Origin: Nitrospirales bacterium LBB_01
Lineage (GTDB): Bacteria > Nitrospirota > Thermodesulfovibrionia > Thermodesulfovibrionales > Magnetobacteriaceae
Length of the DNA: 64,000 nucleotides
Assembly (NCBI GenBank): GCA_004376055.2
Contig: CP049016.1
Location: forward strand, 1,364,001-1,428,000
Direction of reading: 5' to 3'
The position numbers and the translations under genes were made by a program. The first letter of the stretch is position 1, and each line of letters opens with the position of its first letter. Shown here in pieces: positions 1,299 through 62,054 of this stretch. The notes below the pieces were generated by a model, which did not search any database, was not told the origin of the DNA, and was given only the letters and a program-made list of their open reading frames with translations.

Positions 1299-3098
1299 AT
1301 GAAATTTAACATAAAGATACTGCTATCGTTTGTTGGGCTTTCACTGGTATCATTGCTTTTTTTTGGCTACATAGTGTGGCATGGCATGACAGAACTTAGT
1401 GACTACATTACTGTTATTAATGCCCGACTTGGAGAACTGGCACGACAAAACAACATTGACAAGCACAGATATGAGGCGGAAAAACACCTTATTGAAACAG
1501 CAGCAAGCGAGGTAGATATCCAGGTGTTGCATGTTAAAAAGATGGTGGCTTCCGCAATTCCTTTTATCCTGCTTATGGTTTTATGTGCGTCAGCCTTAAT
1601 AACAAGAAAAGCAACAAGATCTATAAAGTCTATTATAGAGGGAATAAAGAGTGTAGGACGTGGAAATCTACAATACAGGATGAGCATTACTGTCGGTGAC
1701 GAGTTTGAGGAACTTGCCCATGCCTATAATAAAATGGCTGATGAGCTTCAGGCATACGATTTAAAGCTAAAGGAACAGACTCAACAGCTCATAAATACAA
1801 ACGATGACATGGTTAGAGAAATATTGGTTCGCATGGAAAAAGAGGATATTGAAAATAAAAGAAATGCAGAGCGACTGCGCTTCAGGGACGCCCTTCTTTA
1901 TTTAAGCCGGAGGGATCTTTCAGAGCCAGATGCGGCATTTAAAAAAATAACCCTGTTGGTTTCAGAAACTATTGCAGTAGCGCGTGTAAGCATATGGCTG
2001 TATGACAAGGACAAAACAGCTATCCTCTGCCGCTGTCTTTATAAAGCAGAGCAGGATGCTTATGAGTCGGGCTTTATTCTGAAAGCTGTGGATTACCCAA
2101 GGTACTTTGAAGCGTTAAAGAATAACCGTATCATAGTTGCCTCCGATGCGCGTACAGACCCACGCACCTCTGAGTTTACAGAGGGCTACCTCAAACCGCT
2201 TAACATTGTCTCTATGATGGATGCCGGTATAAATCAGAAGGGAGAGGTTGCAGGTGTAATCTGTTGTGAACAAACAGAGACACAAATAGTGTGGACTATG
2301 GAGGCACAAGAGTTTGTCTCCTCGGTGTCGGATATGATCTCATTAGTTTTAGAGTCGGCACAGCGCACTCAGACCGAACGTATGCTGATACAACAGTCAA
2401 AACTTGCCGCCATGGGAGAGATGCTCTCTATGATAGCGCATCAGTGGAGACAGCCGCTTTCTTCTATCAGTACAATTGCTGCGGACATGCAGGTTGCTAT
2501 TGCCATTGGGCAGCTTGACATGAAGGATTTTAACGACTCTCTGGACAAGATTAACGAACAGTCACAGTATCTATCAAACACTATTAATGATTTTAAAAAC
2601 TTTTTCAGCCCGACAAGGAAAAAGGAAACAGTCATGCCTGATTATATAATTGAGCATGCATTGAAGATAATTGGTAAATCCATCGAGTATAAAACTATTG
2701 AAGTCCGCAGGGAATACTCTTACAAGACAGCTATACTCTCATACCCTAATGAACTTATCCAGGTTCTCTTAAATATCCTGAAAAATGCCCAGGACATCTT
2801 GTTGGAAAGAAAGGTTACATCTCCGGTCATTGTCATAGGAGGGTATGATGATGACGTCAACACTTTTATAGAGGTCTCTGACAATGCAGGAGGTGTAGAT
2901 GAGAATCTTATCGATAAGATTTTTGAGCCATATTTTACAACACGAGAGGACACAGGCGGTACAGGACTTGGACTTTACATGTCAAAGACTATTGTAGAAA
3001 AACACTGCAAGGGCAGCTTCACCGTAAAAAACCAAAAAGACGGTGTTTGTTTTATAATAAAACTTCCTGTTGAAAACAAGGAAAATGAGGACGTATGA
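1299..3098 (+). CDS. Sensor histidine kinase with HAMP and GAF domains
   Basis: This is an inner-membrane sensor kinase of about 599 residues. A first membrane helix (about residues 6-26) is followed by a roughly 58-residue periplasmic segment and a second helix (about 84-102). Then come a HAMP domain with a coiled coil, a GAF-type domain (about 190-345), a dimerisation helix with phospho-acceptor His at about residue 381 (motif AHQWRQPL), and an HATPase domain with N-box NILKNAQD, VSDNAGG and GTGLGLYMSK. An in-frame GTG lies at 1290, but the AGGTG at 1287-1291 sits correctly for the ATG at 1299, so the later start is preferred. The stop overlaps the next gene (ATGA at 3095), an HD-GYP response regulator, so the two form a co-translated pair. 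The signal is unknown. Confidence 0.9.
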   Translation: MKFNIKILLSFVGLSLVSLLFFGYIVWHGMTELSDYITVINARLGELARQNNIDKHRYEAEKHLIETAASEVDIQVLHVKKMVASAIPFILLMVLCASALITRKATRSIKSIIEGIKSVGRGNLQYRMSITVGDEFEELAHAYNKMADELQAYDLKLKEQTQQLINTNDDMVREILVRMEKEDIENKRNAERLRFRDALLYLSRRDLSEPDAAFKKITLLVSETIAVARVSIWLYDKDKTAILCRCLYKAEQDAYESGFILKAVDYPRYFEALKNNRIIVASDARTDPRTSEFTEGYLKPLNIVSMMDAGINQKGEVAGVICCEQTETQIVWTMEAQEFVSSVSDMISLVLESAQRTQTERMLIQQSKLAAMGEMLSMIAHQWRQPLSSISTIAADMQVAIAIGQLDMKDFNDSLDKINEQSQYLSNTINDFKNFFSPTRKKETVMPDYIIEHALKIIGKSIEYKTIEVRREYSYKTAILSYPNELIQVLLNILKNAQDILLERKVTSPVIVIGGYDDDVNTFIEVSDNAGGVDENLIDKIFEPYFTTREDTGGTGLGLYMSKTIVEKHCKGSFTVKNQKDGVCFIIKLPVENKENEDV

Positions 3099-4207
3099 TA
3101 GATTCAGGAAAGATTAAAGAGCTGTCTAAACAAGCCGAAGGGCTTTCGGTGCTTTATGTTGAGGATGACGTCCATCTTCAGAGAAACACACTGAAACTTT
3201 TGTCCAGATTTTTTGAAAAAATTGACACAGCGTCAAATGGCAAAGAGGGTATTGAAAAATACTCTAACGGTGCCTACGATATAGTCATAACAGACATCAG
3301 AATGCCTGTTATGAATGGAATTGAAATGGCAGCCCAAATAAGGGAAATCAATCCTGCTCAACCCATAATAGTTACGTCGGCGCACGACGAGTCACAGTTC
3401 CTTATCGAGCTTATCAACTTAAATGTAAGCAGTTTTGTTTTAAAACCCATTGACGCAAGTAAAATTATAGATGTTCTCAGAGACATAGTTGATAAGATTT
3501 GGGTTAATAGATACGAACACGACTACAAAAGACTCCTTGAGGAGGCGGTGAAGGACAAGACACGGGAGCTTTCCGATGTCATAGATGTAGCGACAAGTTT
3601 GGGTAACGAGTTAATGCAGCGGCTTGTGGCAGCAAGTGAGCAAAAGGACACAGACACCGGCAGCCATATAGTTAGAATTGGGCTATACGCCGAACACCTT
3701 GCCAGGGAAATGGGTATGACGGAGGATTTTATAAGCTCTATTGCATTTGGGGCACAGTTGCACGACATCGGGAAAATTGGAATAAAAGACAGCATTCTCT
3801 TAAAATCTGGGCCGCTTACTGCCGAGGAGTTTGATACTATGAAATCACATACAGAAATCGGAGCCAAAATACTTTCCGGTTCAAAGTATGCAAGAATACA
3901 GATGGCTGAGGCCATTGCCCGCTGTCACCACGAAAAATGGGATGGTACCGGCTATCCCAGAGGCCTCACAGGCACTGATATACCACTTGAGGCACGAATC
4001 GTAATCATCTGCGACCAATATGACGCATTAGCTATGAAAAGACCTTATAAGCAGGCCCTTGAACATAAAGAAGTCGTTAGAATAATCACAGAAGGCGACG
4101 GCAGAACCATGCCTCAACACTTTGACCCTGAGGTTTTAAATATATTTGCAAAAGTCTCTGATAATTTCATGCAAATATATGGAAAAAATAACACCGCAGG
4201 ACTGTGA
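3095..4207 (+). CDS. Response regulator with HD-GYP domain (probable c-di-GMP phosphodiesterase)
   Basis: 370 residues. The N-terminal receiver domain has phospho-acceptor Asp67 (motif VITDIRMPVMNG) and acidic residues in YVEDD. A linker helix leads to a C-terminal HD-GYP domain with the metal-binding pair His223-Asp224 (motif LHDIGKIGIKD) and the HHEKWDGTGYPRGL signature, so both the HD and GYP elements are intact. The family hydrolyses cyclic di-GMP. Start and stop overlap by four bases with the preceding kinase, which is the likely phosphodonor. Expected output is a change in c-di-GMP controlling motility, adhesion or secretion; the link to the pilus system elsewhere in the window is only inference. 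Confidence 0.9.
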   Translation: MIDSGKIKELSKQAEGLSVLYVEDDVHLQRNTLKLLSRFFEKIDTASNGKEGIEKYSNGAYDIVITDIRMPVMNGIEMAAQIREINPAQPIIVTSAHDESQFLIELINLNVSSFVLKPIDASKIIDVLRDIVDKIWVNRYEHDYKRLLEEAVKDKTRELSDVIDVATSLGNELMQRLVAASEQKDTDTGSHIVRIGLYAEHLAREMGMTEDFISSIAFGAQLHDIGKIGIKDSILLKSGPLTAEEFDTMKSHTEIGAKILSGSKYARIQMAEAIARCHHEKWDGTGYPRGLTGTDIPLEARIVIICDQYDALAMKRPYKQALEHKEVVRIITEGDGRTMPQHFDPEVLNIFAKVSDNFMQIYGKNNTAGL

Positions 4208-4454
4208 TACCAGCTAAAGCAGCAGGACTTTGCAGCTAACAACCAGTTATATAAACAAGATTTTAGCTTTAAACTTCAATAATTTTCTGCCTATAAATAA
4301 GATTTATAACTTCATGATAAAATTTAATAACTATAAACAAAAAACGTGTGGAAATAATTTGTTAAAAGATTGTATTTTTTCAGGTGTGACCTTTACGATT
4401 TAGTTAAACTTATGTTACCATCTGAGCAAAATTTATTTTAAAGGAGAGATGTGA
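4208..4454. other. Intergenic region upstream of the CODH/ACS operon
   Basis: About 245 AT-rich bases with no ORF. They should hold the promoter of the acs operon; no known riboswitch fold or clear sigma-70/sigma-54 consensus was recognised. A strong ribosome-binding site (AAGGAGAG) immediately precedes acsE. Confidence 0.45.
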
Positions 4455-5234
4455 ATGTTGATAATAGGTGAAAAGTTAAGCATAATAGCTAAGAGGGTTA
4501 GAGAGGCCATGAACAAGAGAGACAAGGGTCCCATTCAGGAGATAGCAAAGGCACAGTTTGCAGCCGGAGCTGGGATGATTGACGCTAATATTGGGCCAGC
4601 AGAAGGGATGGAGGATCTAATGGAATGGATGGTTACAACCATTCAGGAGGTTGTGCCGGCGCCTATATGTCTTGATACGACTAACTACGATGCGCTTGAA
4701 AAGGGACTCAAGGTGCATAACAACGAGTGGGGAAAGCCGCTCATTAATTCCACATCAAACGACCCTGAGCGTTTTCCAATTCTTGAGCTTGCCGCTAAGT
4801 ACAACTGCGATGTTATTGGTCTTACTGTAGGTAAAGGAGGGCTTCCTGCCGATGCCGAAGAGCGTTCCGCTATTGCCGCAGAAATTATGGCAAGGGCTAT
4901 GGAGTATGGACTTCCGGTAGAAAACATTTATCTTGATCCGCTTGTCCTTCAGATTGCGACCACTCAGGATCAGGCTCTAAAGGTGGTTCAAACCATCAAA
5001 ATGTTTCAGGAGCTAAATGATCCGCCTATGAAAACCGTTGTCGGTCTTAGTAACATATCTAACGGTTGTCCTAAGCATATCAGACCGATTCTCAACAACC
5101 ACTTCCTTGCACTTTTAATGTACGAGGGACTGACGGCAGCTATCGCAGACGCTCACGAAATTATCACCACCGTAAAAACCATAGACGCTATTACAAATAA
5201 CACCTTGTATGCTCATTCTTATCTTGAAATGTAG
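4455..5234 (+). CDS. acsE: Methyltetrahydrofolate:corrinoid/iron-sulfur protein methyltransferase
   Basis: 259 residues forming one pterin-binding TIM barrel of the dihydropteroate-synthase/MeTr family, the usual AcsE length. Visible family segments include MIDANIGPAEG near the N-terminus, LDTTNYDALEKGL (conserved Asn region that helps polarise methyl-H4folate), NIYLDPLV and GLSNISNGCP. It transfers the methyl group of methyl-tetrahydrofolate to Co(I) of the corrinoid protein AcsCD in the cytoplasm, joining the folate branch to the carbonyl branch of the Wood-Ljungdahl pathway. It is the first gene of the acs cluster, with an AAGGAG ribosome-binding site eight bases from the ATG, and acsD follows directly, supporting the assignment over MetH-like or DHPS paralogues. 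Confidence 0.93.
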   Translation: MLIIGEKLSIIAKRVREAMNKRDKGPIQEIAKAQFAAGAGMIDANIGPAEGMEDLMEWMVTTIQEVVPAPICLDTTNYDALEKGLKVHNNEWGKPLINSTSNDPERFPILELAAKYNCDVIGLTVGKGGLPADAEERSAIAAEIMARAMEYGLPVENIYLDPLVLQIATTQDQALKVVQTIKMFQELNDPPMKTVVGLSNISNGCPKHIRPILNNHFLALLMYEGLTAAIADAHEIITTVKTIDAITNNTLYAHSYLEM

Positions 5235-17580: not shown

Positions 17581-17781
17581 TGCTTATATACTTAACTCAG
17601 GTACATGGTTTTATGTCAGTTAAAGAAACATTAAAAAAAGACTGGATTCCCGCTCGGAGGCGGGAATGACAAAGGGAAGAGGCGGGAATGACAAAGGAGA
17701 GTGCGCTTCTTTTTTCTGTCATTCCTTTACAGGGGAATCCCCTTTAGGGGAGTGTCATTCCTGCGAAGGCAGGAATCCAGT
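17581..17781. repeat. Palindromic intergenic element, copy A
   Basis: The left end TGCTTATATACTTAACTC (17581-17598) is followed by the nested palindrome from ACTGGATTCC (17641) to GGAATCCAGT (17772-17781). A duplicated ggcgggaatgacaaag unit and an extra aggggaatcccctt hairpin lie inside. The right terminal repeat seen in copies B and E is missing. Confidence 0.8.
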
Positions 17782-55531: not shown

Positions 55532-58159
55532 CTAATAAATCCCTTTGGCATTAAGGAATTCGCCATACTTGCGGTCCTCCTCCAACAGGTGTTTGACTAC
55601 CCAGGATTCAAAAAATGACATAAAAGCTGCCTTTTGGGGTACATCTCCGTTACGTACCAGCTCTATATATTCGGTAACTTTCCGAATCAGTTCTTTGTGG
55701 TGTTTGCGGTGAGTTTCTATGCCGGAGTACTGGTAAAGAGACATAAGATTCTCTTCATCTTCAAAATGATAGTGAGTGTAATCTACGAGAGCTTTAAAGA
55801 CCTTGTTCAGAGATTCTCTGTCAATATCTTTTTGCAGATGTTCTATAATTGCGTTACCAATTTCTATAAAGTGCATATGTTGGATATCCATCTGTGCCAC
55901 ATTCAAGGAAAAAATATCATGCCAGTTGAGAGCATCCTCATGTTTATTGCCATATACAAAACGCTCTGTCCTTTGTTGATAACTTTCAAGAAACCTCCAG
56001 GACAGGATTGGTACGTTTTTTAGAAGTTTGCCTGGTATCTGGATAACTGCCATATCCTCCATCACTCGCAGACTATATAGATATGGAACGTTTAAAATTG
56101 CGCCCTCCTCACCAAAAAAGTCACGTTCCTTTAAAACATCTAAGACCTTACTGCCTGCTATTCGCTCAACGCTCCCGTAGCAAATAATATTAACAATCTG
56201 AAGGTCTTTATCTGAAATTATATCACCCTTTAGGTAAACACGCTCTGATACACTGTCTATAATGCGGTTAAAGACCTCCGCAGGCAGTCCGTCGACAAAC
56301 AGCTTTGTTGTTTCCAAAAAGGCACGGATATTAGCAGTTTTCTGCACATGCTCCAGCAGCCCATTGCGTTTTATAACCTTGGCATAGAGTCCACCCGGTC
56401 CAGCCGGAAGTTTCAACACCCGCACAAAAGAGGAGGCACGGTATGTGCTTAGGGAGGGGCTGTTGTCTATTATAACGCCGTCGCCTATGAGCGCTCCGCT
56501 TCTAAGGCTGCCATACAAATTGTCGCGGGTACATATCTTTTCCACTAGTCCGCTAATGAGAAGCAGTACATCCTTAGGCGTCTCACCTTCTTTCAGTATA
56601 ATAGCGCCAGGGTTTATATCTTTTATTGGATGGTTTACCAACATTCTGATATGATGTAGCGGCACACCGGGAAGATGTGCCTGCAAATAGGTGAAAGCGT
56701 TGCGGCGATGCATATCTGATGGCGATGTGCCTGATATCAGCAAGTCACACGTACCAAATACTGCGCTTGAACCAATCTCCTTTTCTATAGGTGTTAAATC
56801 ACCGGCACGATGAGCAAGCAAAATGTGGGTTGATTTGTCTGTTTTGAAGTCCTTTGCATCCCCGTGGATCATGCCTCCGCCAATATCAATCTTTTTCAGA
56901 TCGGCTCTTGTAAGATATGCACTACGGATGGATTCAAAAAAGTGGATGTCAAGACCTGGCTCATTATAGTTTTGTGTTACCATATTTTTAAGAATATCCA
57001 GCGAAACGATGTCTGCAAAATGACAATAGGTTCTATATCCATTTCCCCATAAGGTTCTGAAGATAAATATGTTGGTCTCTATTGGGTGCGGTGAGAAAAC
57101 TGGCATCACCTCAAGTCCCTCTATATCTGTCCACGTGTCAAAGGCAAGGTCTCGTATTTCAAAAAAGTCAGTGAACTTTCTTTCATCTATAGCAAGTAAG
57201 GCGCAAAGTTTTTTTGTCACAGAAGCTCGTACCAAAGGCGTAGCAAAGTACGTAATGCGTCGTCCGGCACGCATAAGTGTGGTAAGACCGGCAAAGTGGT
57301 CATCATGAGCATGAGTGTGAAAAATACCATCCACCTGATCAATATCTATTCCTAACGCTGCCAGTGTGTGAGAAATCTGAGGACCGGCGTCAATCAGATA
57401 CAAACGACCCTGAAAAGTAATAATGCTTGACATACATGGTCGTTCAATGTCCCATCCGTCACCTTCGCCTGAGTTGATAACGGCAAAGTACTCTGATTCC
57501 AGTTTGCGGAACCCCAAAGGATATGGACATTCATATTTTTCCTCCGTAAGTAGATTTAAGTTAACAGTTACAGTTTCTCCTCCATAAGCAAACTGAAAAA
57601 CATTTGTTTGCAGGCGGCTTAGAGTTACACCATTAACCACCTCCACAGCATCATCAGCAAGTATGCAGGTGTCTATGAAGTCTCTGGTAGGCCGAATACG
57701 CCCAAATGCAAACTTGAGCTTTAGACGCATCATATCATGAGCTTGCTCAAGTGGTACACCGGTCTGAGCTATTTCCTCGGTTGATACCAGTCCGTAGTTC
57801 CCTCGGTAGATATAGCTTATCTGAGATTCTATTTGTGCAGCCGAACCGATTAGTATGGGTTTGTGTCCTGTATTGTTAGGATGTCCGGGAAGAATCAGTC
57901 CCTGCTTATAAAGCATCTGAAGTACAGGAAATTCTGCAAGATTAGAAAACTCTCCATTTTGCAGTGAAAGGTCTGAAAGGAGTATTGCGTTGGGCCCGGT
58001 TTCGCAAGCGACACCCTTAACCTCTTGAGGCAGGATAAGCCCTCGCTTAATCAAATGTTTAACTGAGTCAGCGGGGCATCCGCAGAGGACTCGTAAATTA
58101 GCCTCTGGAATCTCTACCCATTGGATTCCTTTTGCAACCTCAATTTTGGTTATTTTCAT
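55532..58159 (-). CDS. Metallo-beta-lactamase-fold protein fused to two cyclic-nucleotide-binding domains and a bacteriohemerythrin
   Basis: 875 residues. An N-terminal about 230-residue region of unknown fold (repeated LIKRGLILP / YKQGLILPGHP motifs) precedes an MBL hydrolase domain with metal motif HTHAHDDHFAG (about residue 280). Two cNMP-binding (CRP-like) domains follow at about 525-650 and 655-740. The last about 125 residues are a hemerythrin with a complete set of likely di-iron ligands (DIQHMHF, HYHFEDEEN, HRKHHKEL, KHLLEEDRKY). It has no membrane helix or HTH, so it is probably a cytosolic O2- or NO-gated enzyme or second-messenger switch. Both the fusion order and the stand-alone position are unusual. 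Confidence 0.85.
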   Translation of the reverse strand: MKITKIEVAKGIQWVEIPEANLRVLCGCPADSVKHLIKRGLILPQEVKGVACETGPNAILLSDLSLQNGEFSNLAEFPVLQMLYKQGLILPGHPNNTGHKPILIGSAAQIESQISYIYRGNYGLVSTEEIAQTGVPLEQAHDMMRLKLKFAFGRIRPTRDFIDTCILADDAVEVVNGVTLSRLQTNVFQFAYGGETVTVNLNLLTEEKYECPYPLGFRKLESEYFAVINSGEGDGWDIERPCMSSIITFQGRLYLIDAGPQISHTLAALGIDIDQVDGIFHTHAHDDHFAGLTTLMRAGRRITYFATPLVRASVTKKLCALLAIDERKFTDFFEIRDLAFDTWTDIEGLEVMPVFSPHPIETNIFIFRTLWGNGYRTYCHFADIVSLDILKNMVTQNYNEPGLDIHFFESIRSAYLTRADLKKIDIGGGMIHGDAKDFKTDKSTHILLAHRAGDLTPIEKEIGSSAVFGTCDLLISGTSPSDMHRRNAFTYLQAHLPGVPLHHIRMLVNHPIKDINPGAIILKEGETPKDVLLLISGLVEKICTRDNLYGSLRSGALIGDGVIIDNSPSLSTYRASSFVRVLKLPAGPGGLYAKVIKRNGLLEHVQKTANIRAFLETTKLFVDGLPAEVFNRIIDSVSERVYLKGDIISDKDLQIVNIICYGSVERIAGSKVLDVLKERDFFGEEGAILNVPYLYSLRVMEDMAVIQIPGKLLKNVPILSWRFLESYQQRTERFVYGNKHEDALNWHDIFSLNVAQMDIQHMHFIEIGNAIIEHLQKDIDRESLNKVFKALVDYTHYHFEDEENLMSLYQYSGIETHRKHHKELIRKVTEYIELVRNGDVPQKAAFMSFFESWVVKHLLEEDRKYGEFLNAKGIY

Positions 58160-58404: not shown

Positions 58405-59052
58405 TTATAAGTTAAGTTTATACCCTCTGCCTTTATAAGTGGAGATAGCATTAGGAGGCAGAATTTTTCTAAGCATTTTTACATAGGTTCGTATTATCTC
58501 ATCACTTGAGGGTTTATCGCCCCACACGTAGCCCATAATTGTATCGTTGTAAACAATCTCGCCGCGATGCTTAAGCAGCAGATAAAAAAGATTCCACGCT
58601 ATTTTTGAAAAATTTACCTCAGCTCCGTCCTTATAAATCACCTGAGCGTCAATATCCACCGTGATATTGTCTATTTTTATAAGGCTGTGAATGTGAGATC
58701 TGTTTGACAGGGATTTGATTCTTAAAACCAGCTCTCGCAAATTAAACGGTTTTGTAAGGTAATCGTCAGCGCCATATCTAAAACAGGTCTCCTTATCAGA
58801 TATGTTTTCTTTGGAGGTAAGAATAAGTATAGGTGTGCTGATTCCCTTTGCTCGTATCTGTCTGAGAATGTCCTCGCCTTTAAGATACCGAAGTACCAGG
58901 TCAAGTATTATCACATCATACGTATAATTATTCAGATAATTAAAATACTCCCTTTCATCAGGAGGGTAATCAGCCATAATATCCTTTGTCTTTAGATATT
59001 CCACCAAACTCTCACACAGTATCTTATCGTCTTCTATAATTAATACTCTCAT
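58405..59052 (-). CDS. OmpR/PhoB-family response regulator
   Basis: 215 residues. Receiver domain with acidic pocket IEDD, phospho-acceptor Asp51 (VIILDLVL), conserved LTSKE and KPF, then a winged-helix DNA-binding domain ending RGRGYKL. It is a DNA-binding transcription factor. It lies in the same direction as a PfkB kinase and a haem-c histidine kinase (60081), making that kinase a candidate partner; the HisKA_2 type of that kinase more often pairs with other regulators, so the pairing is tentative. Confidence 0.92.
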   Translation of the reverse strand: MRVLIIEDDKILCESLVEYLKTKDIMADYPPDEREYFNYLNNYTYDVIILDLVLRYLKGEDILRQIRAKGISTPILILTSKENISDKETCFRYGADDYLTKPFNLRELVLRIKSLSNRSHIHSLIKIDNITVDIDAQVIYKDGAEVNFSKIAWNLFYLLLKHRGEIVYNDTIMGYVWGDKPSSDEIIRTYVKMLRKILPPNAISTYKGRGYKLNL

Positions 59053-59113
59053 ATGACATTAAGTATAACATCTAAATGTGACAAAATACACACTATAACC
59101 TGAAAATTGGGGA

Positions 59114-60052
59114 CTAAGTGCCGGGCTTTTTTTCCGAAGGATTAGTGATATGACCAATAAACTCATCCACTTTATCTTTATCAAGAAAACCTGCGCCAAG
59201 CTCCATAGAGCTTGCAGACCCAGCACAAGCTCCTGAAATTAGAGCCTCTTCTGTAGTCTTACCTTCACTTAAGGAAAGTGCAAGCCCTGCAGTAAAACTG
59301 TCGCCGCAACCCAGAGCATTTACGGCTTTTACCTCAGGCGGCATAACCGTATAAAGCTTCCCCTCAGAGGCTGCATGTATTGCCCTGTCACCGTCTGTAG
59401 CTATGCTTATAAACACGCCCTTTTTGTTTATTTTGCCAAGTTCTTTCAGTATTCTGTCGTCAGATGGAGGGCTCTTTCCAGAAATCGCCATAAGTTCATC
59501 CCTGTTTATTTTTATCACATGCGGTGAGGCGGTCAGTGCTTTCTTAAGAGGTTCTCCGCTTGTATCCAGTATCACTGTGGCTTGCTGTTGTCTGGCCATA
59601 AGAATCAAATCACAGAATATGTCCTCGCCAAAGCCGATAGCTGCAGAACCGCTTATGACTATCATATCGCCGGCACTGACAGTTTCTGTAAATAGAGATT
59701 TAAAATCGGCAACCTCAGATGCTGTTACTGCGGGGCCTGTCTCGTTTATAACAGTCTCTGACGTTTCGCTTATAATGGACATACATGTGCGCGAATTTTC
59801 TGCAATCTTAACGTATCTGAGACTTAAGCCCTCCTCAGATGCCATGTCGCGGATTTGTTTCCCAGCGCCTCCGCCAAGGATAGTTAGTGAGAGAGAATCT
59901 TTACTGAGTGATTTTAAAGCCCTTGATACATTTATGCCCTTACCGCCGGCATACTTTTTAAGCACTACTGCCCGATTCATTGTGCCTGTCTGAAAGTTTG
60001 AGATTCTCAGTATCTTATCAACTGCCGGATTAAGAGTTACCGTTATAATCAT
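59114..60052 (-). CDS. PfkB-family sugar kinase, 1-phosphofructokinase/tagatose-6-P kinase type
   Basis: 312 residues. The N-terminus MIITVTLNPAVDKIL and the KKYAGGKGINVSRALK substrate motif, with the C-terminal ATP/anion-hole signature GCGDSFTAGLAL, place it with FruK/LacC-type phosphosugar kinases. It would phosphorylate fructose-1-P or a similar hexose phosphate at the expense of ATP. No PTS genes are close, so the true substrate is open. It lies between a response regulator and a sensor kinase on the same strand. Confidence 0.87.
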   Translation of the reverse strand: MIITVTLNPAVDKILRISNFQTGTMNRAVVLKKYAGGKGINVSRALKSLSKDSLSLTILGGGAGKQIRDMASEEGLSLRYVKIAENSRTCMSIISETSETVINETGPAVTASEVADFKSLFTETVSAGDMIVISGSAAIGFGEDIFCDLILMARQQQATVILDTSGEPLKKALTASPHVIKINRDELMAISGKSPPSDDRILKELGKINKKGVFISIATDGDRAIHAASEGKLYTVMPPEVKAVNALGCGDSFTAGLALSLSEGKTTEEALISGACAGSASSMELGAGFLDKDKVDEFIGHITNPSEKKPGT

Positions 60053-60080
60053 GTCAGACCTTGTCCTCCCCCCGTCTTTT

Positions 60081-62054
60081 TTACAAGCGTTGTTTGTATA
60101 TGTTTTCCTTAAAAACTAATATAAATTTTGTGCCGCTTTTTCGCTCAACTATAACCTGTCCCTGTAGTTGATTTTCCACTATCGAGTGTACTAATTGAAG
60201 TCCGAGTGATTTATGCTCTGCAAGCTCAGACTCCTGTGGGATTCCAACTCCGTTGTCCCAAACTAATAATTTATAACTGTCAGTGCCATCGTCTGGGATG
60301 TGGAGAGAAATGCCGATTTCTCTTTCTGGTGGCTGAGAATCATTGATAGAAATATCAGGAAAAGCATACTTTATTGAGTTTGAAATCAACTCATTTATGA
60401 CAAGTCCGCAGGATATGACCGTGTCTATAACAAATGATATCGAAGGGACATCCACTTTCAGGTTGATTTTCCGCTCACTGACCCCGTATGATCTGAAAAG
60501 CCCAAGAGCAAGATTTCTGACATAGTCATTAAAGTCTATTTTAGACAGGGTTTCGGACTGGTACAGTTTCTCATGTACTAAAGACATTGCTTTTATACGG
60601 TTTTTTGTTTCGGTAAAGATGTCAATGTCTTTTTGATCTTTAAGGTATCGGTTCTGAAGGTTAAGCAGGCTTGTTATTATTTGCATGTTGTTTTTAACGC
60701 GATGGTGAATTTCACGAAGGAGCACCTCTTTTTCATGCAAAGAAGCGGATATCTGATTTTCCATATGTTTTCTCTCAGTAATATCTCTGACTATGGCAAC
60801 GTAAAACCTGTCCTCTTTAATTTTCCACGAGGCGATGGATACCTCACATGGAAACTCGGTACCATCTTTTCTGTGTCCTTCAAATTCCAATCTCTTACCG
60901 GCAAAGTAAGAATCACCAAGTAGTTGCAGCATCTGAACTGCTCTCTTGTATGTATCCTGAAGTCTTGACGGAATCAGCTCAGCAGCATGTTTGCCTGTCA
61001 AGTCTGCCTCTTTGTAACCAAATATTGCTTCAGCCCCGCGGTTAAATGATATAATCACACCGTTTTCATCGGTTGAGATAATCCCGTCTTGTACTGATTG
61101 AATGAGAGAGCGGTACTTAGTTTCAGACTCGCTTAGAATCTCCTCAGTATGTCTGCGTTCGTTAATCTCAATGGTTAACTGTTCGTTAGTTTCCCTGATT
61201 TCACGAGTCCTTAATTCAACCACAGAGTCCTGCTCTACTTTTGCATGTCTGAGTTTAAGCCATTGGGAGCGAATTTTAGACATAAACAGAAGTATCATAG
61301 CGCTTATTGATAAAAACACCATTATGTGAAGAAGCGATAGAGCGATTTTCTGTTTTTTTACTGTACTGTAAAGAACATCAACAGGGACTGTAACACTTAT
61401 CCCGCCTCTAATGTCGCCTACTTTATAACCCTGGTTTTGATGGCATTTTAAACAGGCATCTTTAACTCTAAGAGGAGCCATGTACCGAAACACTGAGTTT
61501 TCAAACATCTCTGACTTTTCGGTAATACCGCCTTCAAAGTCCCTCAGTGCAGCGCTTTCCCAGGTATCGGGGCTGTTTTGGGGACGGATTGGTTTTAAAC
61601 TGGTTATGTGGAACATGATACTGTTACGTTCCATCAAAACCTCTGACATTTGGCGCGTCATATATGCAGGGTTTACGAGAGTGAGTTTCATGCCGTTTGT
61701 GGTTACGACGTCTCTGTCTTTTACCTCAAGATACGGATTTGGTGTTGTCTCATCAGTTATAACCACATAGACGCCTCCATGACGCGCATTCCAGAGCCTT
61801 GCGTTTTCCACCATCTGAAATATTACTCTGCCGTCTTCAATAGCCAGTGCCTTGAAGTTAGTGTCAATTTGAAAAAAGTACCATTTGAGCGATATTGCGG
61901 TTATTATAAGACACAACAGCACAGGCAACAGCCAGTATGCCCTGTTCTCTATAAAGTCTGAGTACGCCCCAGAGCTATTATGACTGCCGACTGGTTCAGG
62001 CTTTTCCGGTGTCAGAGAGTTTTCCATGTTATGTCTCATATTTAAACATAACAC
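60081..62054 (-). CDS. Sensor histidine kinase with periplasmic haem-c (Tll0287-like/DUF3365) and PAS domains
   Basis: Up to 657 residues. Start GTG 62054, ATG 62039 or ATG 62027 are all in frame; the ATG at 62027 gives the tidier N-terminus. A transmembrane helix (YWLLPVLLCLIITAISL) is followed by a periplasmic DUF3365 domain with one haem-c site CLKCH, a second helix (LHIMVFLSISAMILLFM), a coiled coil, a PAS domain (GIISTDENGVIISFNRGAEAIFGY), and a HisKA_2 (IHHRVKNNMQIITSLLNLQ) plus HATPase domain. The haem suggests sensing of redox state, O2 or NO in the periplasm. Candidate partner: the OmpR-type regulator at 58405. Confidence 0.88.
   Translation of the reverse strand: MLCLNMRHNMENSLTPEKPEPVGSHNSSGAYSDFIENRAYWLLPVLLCLIITAISLKWYFFQIDTNFKALAIEDGRVIFQMVENARLWNARHGGVYVVITDETTPNPYLEVKDRDVVTTNGMKLTLVNPAYMTRQMSEVLMERNSIMFHITSLKPIRPQNSPDTWESAALRDFEGGITEKSEMFENSVFRYMAPLRVKDACLKCHQNQGYKVGDIRGGISVTVPVDVLYSTVKKQKIALSLLHIMVFLSISAMILLFMSKIRSQWLKLRHAKVEQDSVVELRTREIRETNEQLTIEINERRHTEEILSESETKYRSLIQSVQDGIISTDENGVIISFNRGAEAIFGYKEADLTGKHAAELIPSRLQDTYKRAVQMLQLLGDSYFAGKRLEFEGHRKDGTEFPCEVSIASWKIKEDRFYVAIVRDITERKHMENQISASLHEKEVLLREIHHRVKNNMQIITSLLNLQNRYLKDQKDIDIFTETKNRIKAMSLVHEKLYQSETLSKIDFNDYVRNLALGLFRSYGVSERKINLKVDVPSISFVIDTVISCGLVINELISNSIKYAFPDISINDSQPPEREIGISLHIPDDGTDSYKLLVWDNGVGIPQESELAEHKSLGLQLVHSIVENQLQGQVIVERKSGTKFILVFKENIYKQRL

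Follow-up and report, generated by a model that had tools for sequence, protein, structure and literature searches.

The window, that is, the whole stretch of 64,000 nucleotides of the genome of Nitrospirales bacterium LBB_01 analyzed here, encodes on its minus strand a single intact ORF of 875 aa (55532-58159). The ORF, the Pfam matches, and the comparison with relatives give the order of its parts: a predicted degenerate metallo-beta-lactamase (MBL) domain, an MBL domain, two CNB folds, and a hemerythrin, all features of the gene being on the minus strand. The original prediction had put an MBL domain, two cNMP domains, and a hemerythrin on one chain with exactly these coordinates, and Pfam, NCBIfam, and the complete ligand sets bear this out. 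In agreement with it, family searches of the 875-aa protein gave no membrane or DNA-binding domain, and the metal ligands on which it depended are all there (7/7 in the MBL domain and 7/7 at the di-iron site). Two same-genus genomes encode the ORF at full length with 86% identity, and the same-genus comparison gives a dN of 0.075 for a dS of 0.62, which together show that this is a real gene. Text searches of the literature for hemerythrin, MBL, and CNB together gave no paper on such an architecture. The protein is intact, conserved, rare, and modular.

The gene is preceded on its own strand by a run (58405-62054) that encodes a Tll0287-like/PAS/HisKA_2 histidine kinase, a PfkB kinase, and an OmpR-type regulator, the PfkB sugar kinase sitting between the two-component parts. 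The OmpR-type response regulator (58405-59052, minus strand) is the nearest of them, a neighbor by adjacency only, and a gap of 245 bp with a copy of a hairpin repeat separates these genes from the MBL-CNB-hemerythrin gene. This upstream order is kept in a same-genus contig and not in other genera, and the gene neighborhoods of relatives from different genera have nothing in common. The hairpin, of 21 bases (GATTCCTGCYTTCGCAGGAAT), occurs seven times in the window against an expectation of 0, one copy having a mismatch; the copies are at 17757, 27819, 47740, 50345, 51374, 58325, and 62129, one of them just upstream of the gene. A role in defense or in phage biology was considered and rejected, given no PADLOC match and a match only to a generic phage metal-dependent hydrolase family.

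The genome has five matches to class III cyclases, along with 29 to CNB domains that fall in some two dozen genes. Its host therefore probably makes cyclic mononucleotides, as far as can be judged from these gene families. It has one copy of the core (the protein up to its hemerythrin), and the other four matches to the protein cover the hemerythrin part only. Elsewhere in this genome, two arms of about 13.7 kb (C1:1066870-1080581 and 1083986-1097697; L052, L053, L054) form a perfect inverted repeat, which is either a recent duplication or an assembly artefact. A bacteriohemerythrin gene is present in identical form in both arms, and the 3.4 kb spacer holds a hybrid histidine kinase-like gene.

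The catalytic MBL domain and its N-terminal partner

The catalytic MBL domain spans residues 216-480 (56720-57514). Pfam finds Lactamase_B at residues 240-299 (E 1.9e-10) and Lactamase_B_2 (E 2.2e-9), and PF12706 scores 37.7 bits for a cut-off of 27. The metal motif HTHAHDDH (residues 281-288, 57296-57319) contributes the ligands H283, H285, D287, and H288; to these the alignment of seven sequences adds H358 in an SPHP motif (57086-57088), the bridging ligand D383 in an ADI motif (57011-57013), and the last ligand, H450 (56810-56812). These seven residues, identical in 7/7 sequences (the window protein and six relatives), correspond by alignment to the full dinuclear ligand set of an MBL hydrolase. 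That these ligands and many residues around them do not vary, at a domain identity of 56-57%, suggests that catalysis has been retained.

The motif T-H-x-H-x-D-H is of the dizinc hydrolase type. Flavodiiron O2/NO reductases carry H-x-E-x-D-H instead, and an oxidoreductase of that kind was rejected on the arrangement H283-x-H285-x-D287-H288. In a PDB search with the seven-sequence profile, the top match is Apyc1 (7u2s, E 1e-5), in an alignment that begins with the metal motif and includes the histidine of SPHP. A model of residues 1-500 has three Apyc1 structures as its best fold matches (Z 14.8-15.2 over 183-192 residues), followed by PqqB, RNase Z, PhnP, the phosphodiesterase YhfI (Z 12.2), and flavodiiron MBL domains, with Brucella MBL proteins with bound GMP/AMP also among the matches. 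Apyc1 (PMC9117128) and YhfI (PMC9293780) are class II cyclic-nucleotide phosphodiesterases. Atypical class II enzymes are defined by a [T/S]HXHXDH motif together with family PF12706 (PMC9293780), and the window protein has both, with THAHDDH and a PF12706 score above the cut-off. Since the motif is of the dizinc type and Apyc1 comes closest among solved structures in both the profile and the fold comparison, a phosphodiesterase is favored over an oxidoreductase on sequence and predicted fold.

Two positions depart from the known enzymes. Glu74 of Apyc1, five residues past the last histidine of the motif, corresponds to T293 here, and none of the relatives has a Glu there; the residue is essential in Apyc1 (PMC9117128), the one enzyme for which this requirement is known. 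Its lack of a counterpart makes the exact substrate less certain. Similarly, Asp286, directly before the DH, is invariant in the window protein and its relatives, a place that in atypical class II phosphodiesterases is more often taken by a small or hydrophobic residue (PMC9293780).

The N-terminal domain (residues 1-215, 57515-58159) has TGPNAILLSDLSLQNGEFSNLAEFPVLQMLY where an MBL would show THxHxDH. It is as conserved as the MBL domain, with 55-60% identity to four distant relatives, for which the MBL figure is 56-57%. Neither Pfam nor the PDB profile search recognizes it as an MBL by sequence, and a profile-profile comparison with the protein's own MBL domain gives an hhalign probability of 0.4%. 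The AlphaFold model of the full-length protein (875 residues, five sequences) was unusable, at a mean pLDDT of 47. The model of residues 1-500 reached a mean pLDDT of 67 and a pTM of 0.69, with the N-domain mostly at 60-90, these figures being those of the best of five models, the other four of which were worse. In it, the strands and helices of residues 1-200 succeed each other as in an MBL half. Human ELAC2, a long RNase Z, is a tandem that pairs an inactive MBL domain at its N-terminus with an active one at its C-terminus. Nine entries for ELAC2 align over residues 1-468 of the model (334-349 residues, Z 11.6-13.7, with a sequence identity of 12-14%), whereas on the same model single-MBL chains align only some 170-200 residues, over 211-477. 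From the model and these alignments, we predict that the N-terminal domain is a second, degenerate MBL without the metal motif, packed as in the tandem-MBL ELAC2. We keep this as a prediction because the sequence methods are silent and one model in five reached such confidence. Apyc1 (PMC9117128) and YhfI (PMC9293780) are homodimers, and in our reading of the model the N-domain may replace the second protomer of such class II enzymes. The original prediction had left some 230 N-terminal residues unassigned, and they are best read as this degenerate MBL; of the two activities it had proposed, phosphodiesterase or oxidoreductase, the motif and the Apyc1 matches favor the former and the ligand motif disfavors the latter.

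The CNB folds and the hemerythrin domain

Pfam places cNMP_binding on two stretches (E 1.1e-15), corresponding to CNB fold 1 (residues 495-600, 56360-56677) and CNB fold 2 (residues 605-735, 55955-56347). The canonical phosphate cassette reads FGE(L/I/V)AL..(P/V)R, and its arginine holds the cAMP phosphate (PMC2246266). This position is Ser569 in the first fold and Tyr693 in the second; over all relatives with readable sequence, it is S, L, or Q in CNB1 and Y, D, G, or N in CNB2. The cassette Gly-Glu/Asp is retained, and CNB1 keeps an invariant Arg574, five residues from the usual arginine position. Families without the cassette arginine include CooA, which binds heme, FNR, and others, some of which bind other ligands or none known (PMC2246266). 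Since the arginine is missing from both folds, it is unlikely, judging by the alignment, that they bind cAMP or cGMP in the standard way and that standard cyclic-nucleotide gating takes place. The folds also diverge fast, with identities to the window protein of 26-36% for CNB1 (four distant relatives) and 22-27% for CNB2 (three), which, with the missing arginine, leaves cyclic-nucleotide gating hypothetical. The two cNMP domains of the original prediction are indeed CNB folds, but they lack the canonical phosphate-binding arginine, and the proposed response to cyclic nucleotides is weakened.

The C-terminal bacteriohemerythrin domain (residues 744-875, 55535-55930) is recognized by Pfam (Hemerythrin at 754-867, E 9.3e-12; PF01814 at 46 bits for a cut-off of 25.3) and by the NCBIfam bacteriohemerythrin model NF033749 (102.5 bits for a cut-off of 84). 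Its ligands H761, H798, E802, H817, H821, H857, and D862, the five His, one Glu, and one Asp of a di-iron site, are complete in all four sequences with an HHE domain, and the solved structure that matches it best is that of the hemerythrin domain from DcrH, a chemotaxis protein. As the site is complete, gating by O2 or redox through the hemerythrin is plausible from the sequence, with the domain lying outside the conserved core. The outputs of known bacterial hemerythrin sensors are chemotaxis and the synthesis or breakdown of c-di-GMP (PMC9388753), and a survey counts 56 hemerythrin architectures (PMC4919030). The window protein resembles DcrH, Bhr-DGC, and Bhr-HD-GYP, the last of them a phosphodiesterase, in joining a bacteriohemerythrin as putative O2/redox sensor to a signaling output. 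It differs in that their outputs are chemotaxis or c-di-GMP turnover, whereas its own would be an MBL hydrolase with CNB folds.

Relatives and distribution of the core

By profile search, the core is present in 7 of the 230 genomes examined from the class, in 5 of 176 from the order, and in 4 of 396 from an even sampling of the phylum. Outside the phylum, one broad single-protein scan, sensitive to close relatives only, yielded a Nitrospirae MAG and nothing else. On plasmids, the matches were confined to the hemerythrin or were weak and partial, several of them to generic MBL proteins, and no core relative was confirmed either there or on viral contigs.

The relatives carry the same core with different sensors or none. 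G447 has the core of about 730 residues alone (730 aa), and G014 has a receiver domain (REC) in front and no hemerythrin (879 aa). A hemerythrin behind the core occurs in the genus of the window and in G367, which belongs to another family; the core homologue of G451 ends at a contig end. The sensor is thus exchangeable on one core, and the switch may be exchanged between species. The HHE domains of the window protein and G367 are 29% identical and do not group in the tree, and a single HHE clade is not rejected (p-AU 0.386), so that one or two gains are both compatible. In the core tree, G014, from the same family, is set apart from the genus of the window, a placement that on seven sequences does not argue for lateral transfer. 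The identities given above for the two halves indicate that selection holds the catalytic half while the regulatory half changes. Near the core homologue of G447 (L050), we also observed, reading from the sequence, a protein that resembles class III cyclases and seems to include an FHA region (1041-1973), and a 746-aa protein with apparently two CNB folds (2314-4554).

A candidate sensor-regulated phosphodiesterase

We tentatively prefer, at somewhat less than even confidence, an MBL-type (class II) phosphodiesterase controlled by O2 or redox through its hemerythrin, for which we infer the substrate, the O2/redox gating, and the direction of regulation. The protein would be a soluble, sensor-regulated enzyme with a tandem MBL as its catalytic unit, the N-terminal MBL, its metal motif lost, acting as an intramolecular partner and the second holding the dinuclear metal site and cleaving a phosphodiester, with a cyclic mononucleotide as the most likely substrate. 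The CNB pair, probably devoid of standard cAMP/cGMP binding, would serve as a regulatory or oligomerizing relay between sensor and enzyme. In the genus of the window, O2 binding or a redox change at the di-iron site would set the activity; in the G014 relative, the receiver domain would set it by phosphorylation. The invariant MBL and HHE ligands, the Apyc1 matches, the motif with PF12706, the domain order of GbpA/GbpB, the occurrence of the core alone, with REC, or with HHE, and the cyclase and CNB genes of the genome count in favor. For the tandem MBL in particular, so do the homodimeric state of Apyc1 and YhfI and the alignment of ELAC2 over both halves. The residue at the E74 position, Asp286 before the DH, the model pLDDT of 67, the silence of the sequence methods on the N-domain, and the non-conserved HHE count against, and the MBL fold houses many chemistries, with good matches to PqqB, RNase Z, and lactonases as well. 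Apyc1, YhfI, and Rv1339 share the THxHxDH motif and a PF12706-type MBL with the window protein; they differ in being small enzymes, single-domain homodimers in Apyc1 and YhfI, where the window MBL is a tandem within a multi-domain protein.

A hydrolase of RNA or nucleotide adducts of the RNase Z/PhnP kind, with sensors tuning RNA or metabolite processing, we consider somewhat unlikely. Among NCBIfam models, RNase Z fits the MBL part best (TIGR02651, E 2.8e-9), but far below the cut-off (36.5 bits vs 292.95). The likeness of the tandem to ELAC2, itself an RNase Z, and the fold matches to PhnP and to the Brucella proteins with GMP/AMP speak for such an enzyme, yet no RNA-binding exosite was identified and the fusions to CNB and HHE domains point to signaling, domains that also set the protein apart from ELAC2. 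An unrelated small molecule (a lactone, thioester, or similar) as substrate, or a catalytically weak MBL scaffold serving as a signaling platform, would suit the great diversity of MBL superfamily chemistry and the lactonases and PqqB aligning at Z 11-14; the invariant ligands and surroundings at 56-57% identity argue for retained catalysis and make this reading quite improbable.

A parallel in plan is offered by GbpA and GbpB of Dictyostelium, class IIb phosphodiesterases in which the MBL is followed by a pair of CNB domains and which are activated by cyclic nucleotide bound to those domains (PMC11988041). The likeness, an intracellular MBL followed by two CNB domains, is one of domain order, not of sequence; the window protein adds the predicted degenerate MBL and the hemerythrin, and lacks the canonical cyclic-nucleotide arginine. 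A true bacterial counterpart, with CNB folds binding cAMP or cGMP non-canonically to activate the phosphodiesterase and the hemerythrin as a second input, would agree with the identical MBL-CNB-CNB order, with Arg574 near the cassette, and with the retained Gly-Glu/Asp. We find it unlikely all the same: the equivalent of Arg209 is missing from both folds in all readable relatives, arginine-less families include some with other ligands or with no known one (PMC2246266), and the CNB folds are 22-36% identical, vs 55-60% for the catalytic half. The window protein may work like GbpA/GbpB in plan, and we do not claim membership, because the CNB arginine is missing and the comparison is one of domain order.

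The phosphodiesterase controlled through its hemerythrin remains our preferred reading. Its extension to a modular family of cyclic-nucleotide phosphodiesterases, built of an MBL pseudo-dimer, a non-canonical CNB relay, and a plugged-in hemerythrin or receiver, in which O2/redox state or phosphorylation would control the breakdown of cyclic mononucleotides, as a bacterial structural counterpart of GbpA/GbpB, is less likely than not. If true, the preferred reading would tie O2/redox sensing by hemerythrin straight to an MBL phosphodiesterase, which the review of hemerythrin sensors (PMC9388753) does not describe among their outputs, and would give a bacterial parallel to GbpA/GbpB, which were described in a social amoeba. 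Since one core occurs with three sensor arrangements, the gating can be tested directly by comparing natural variants.
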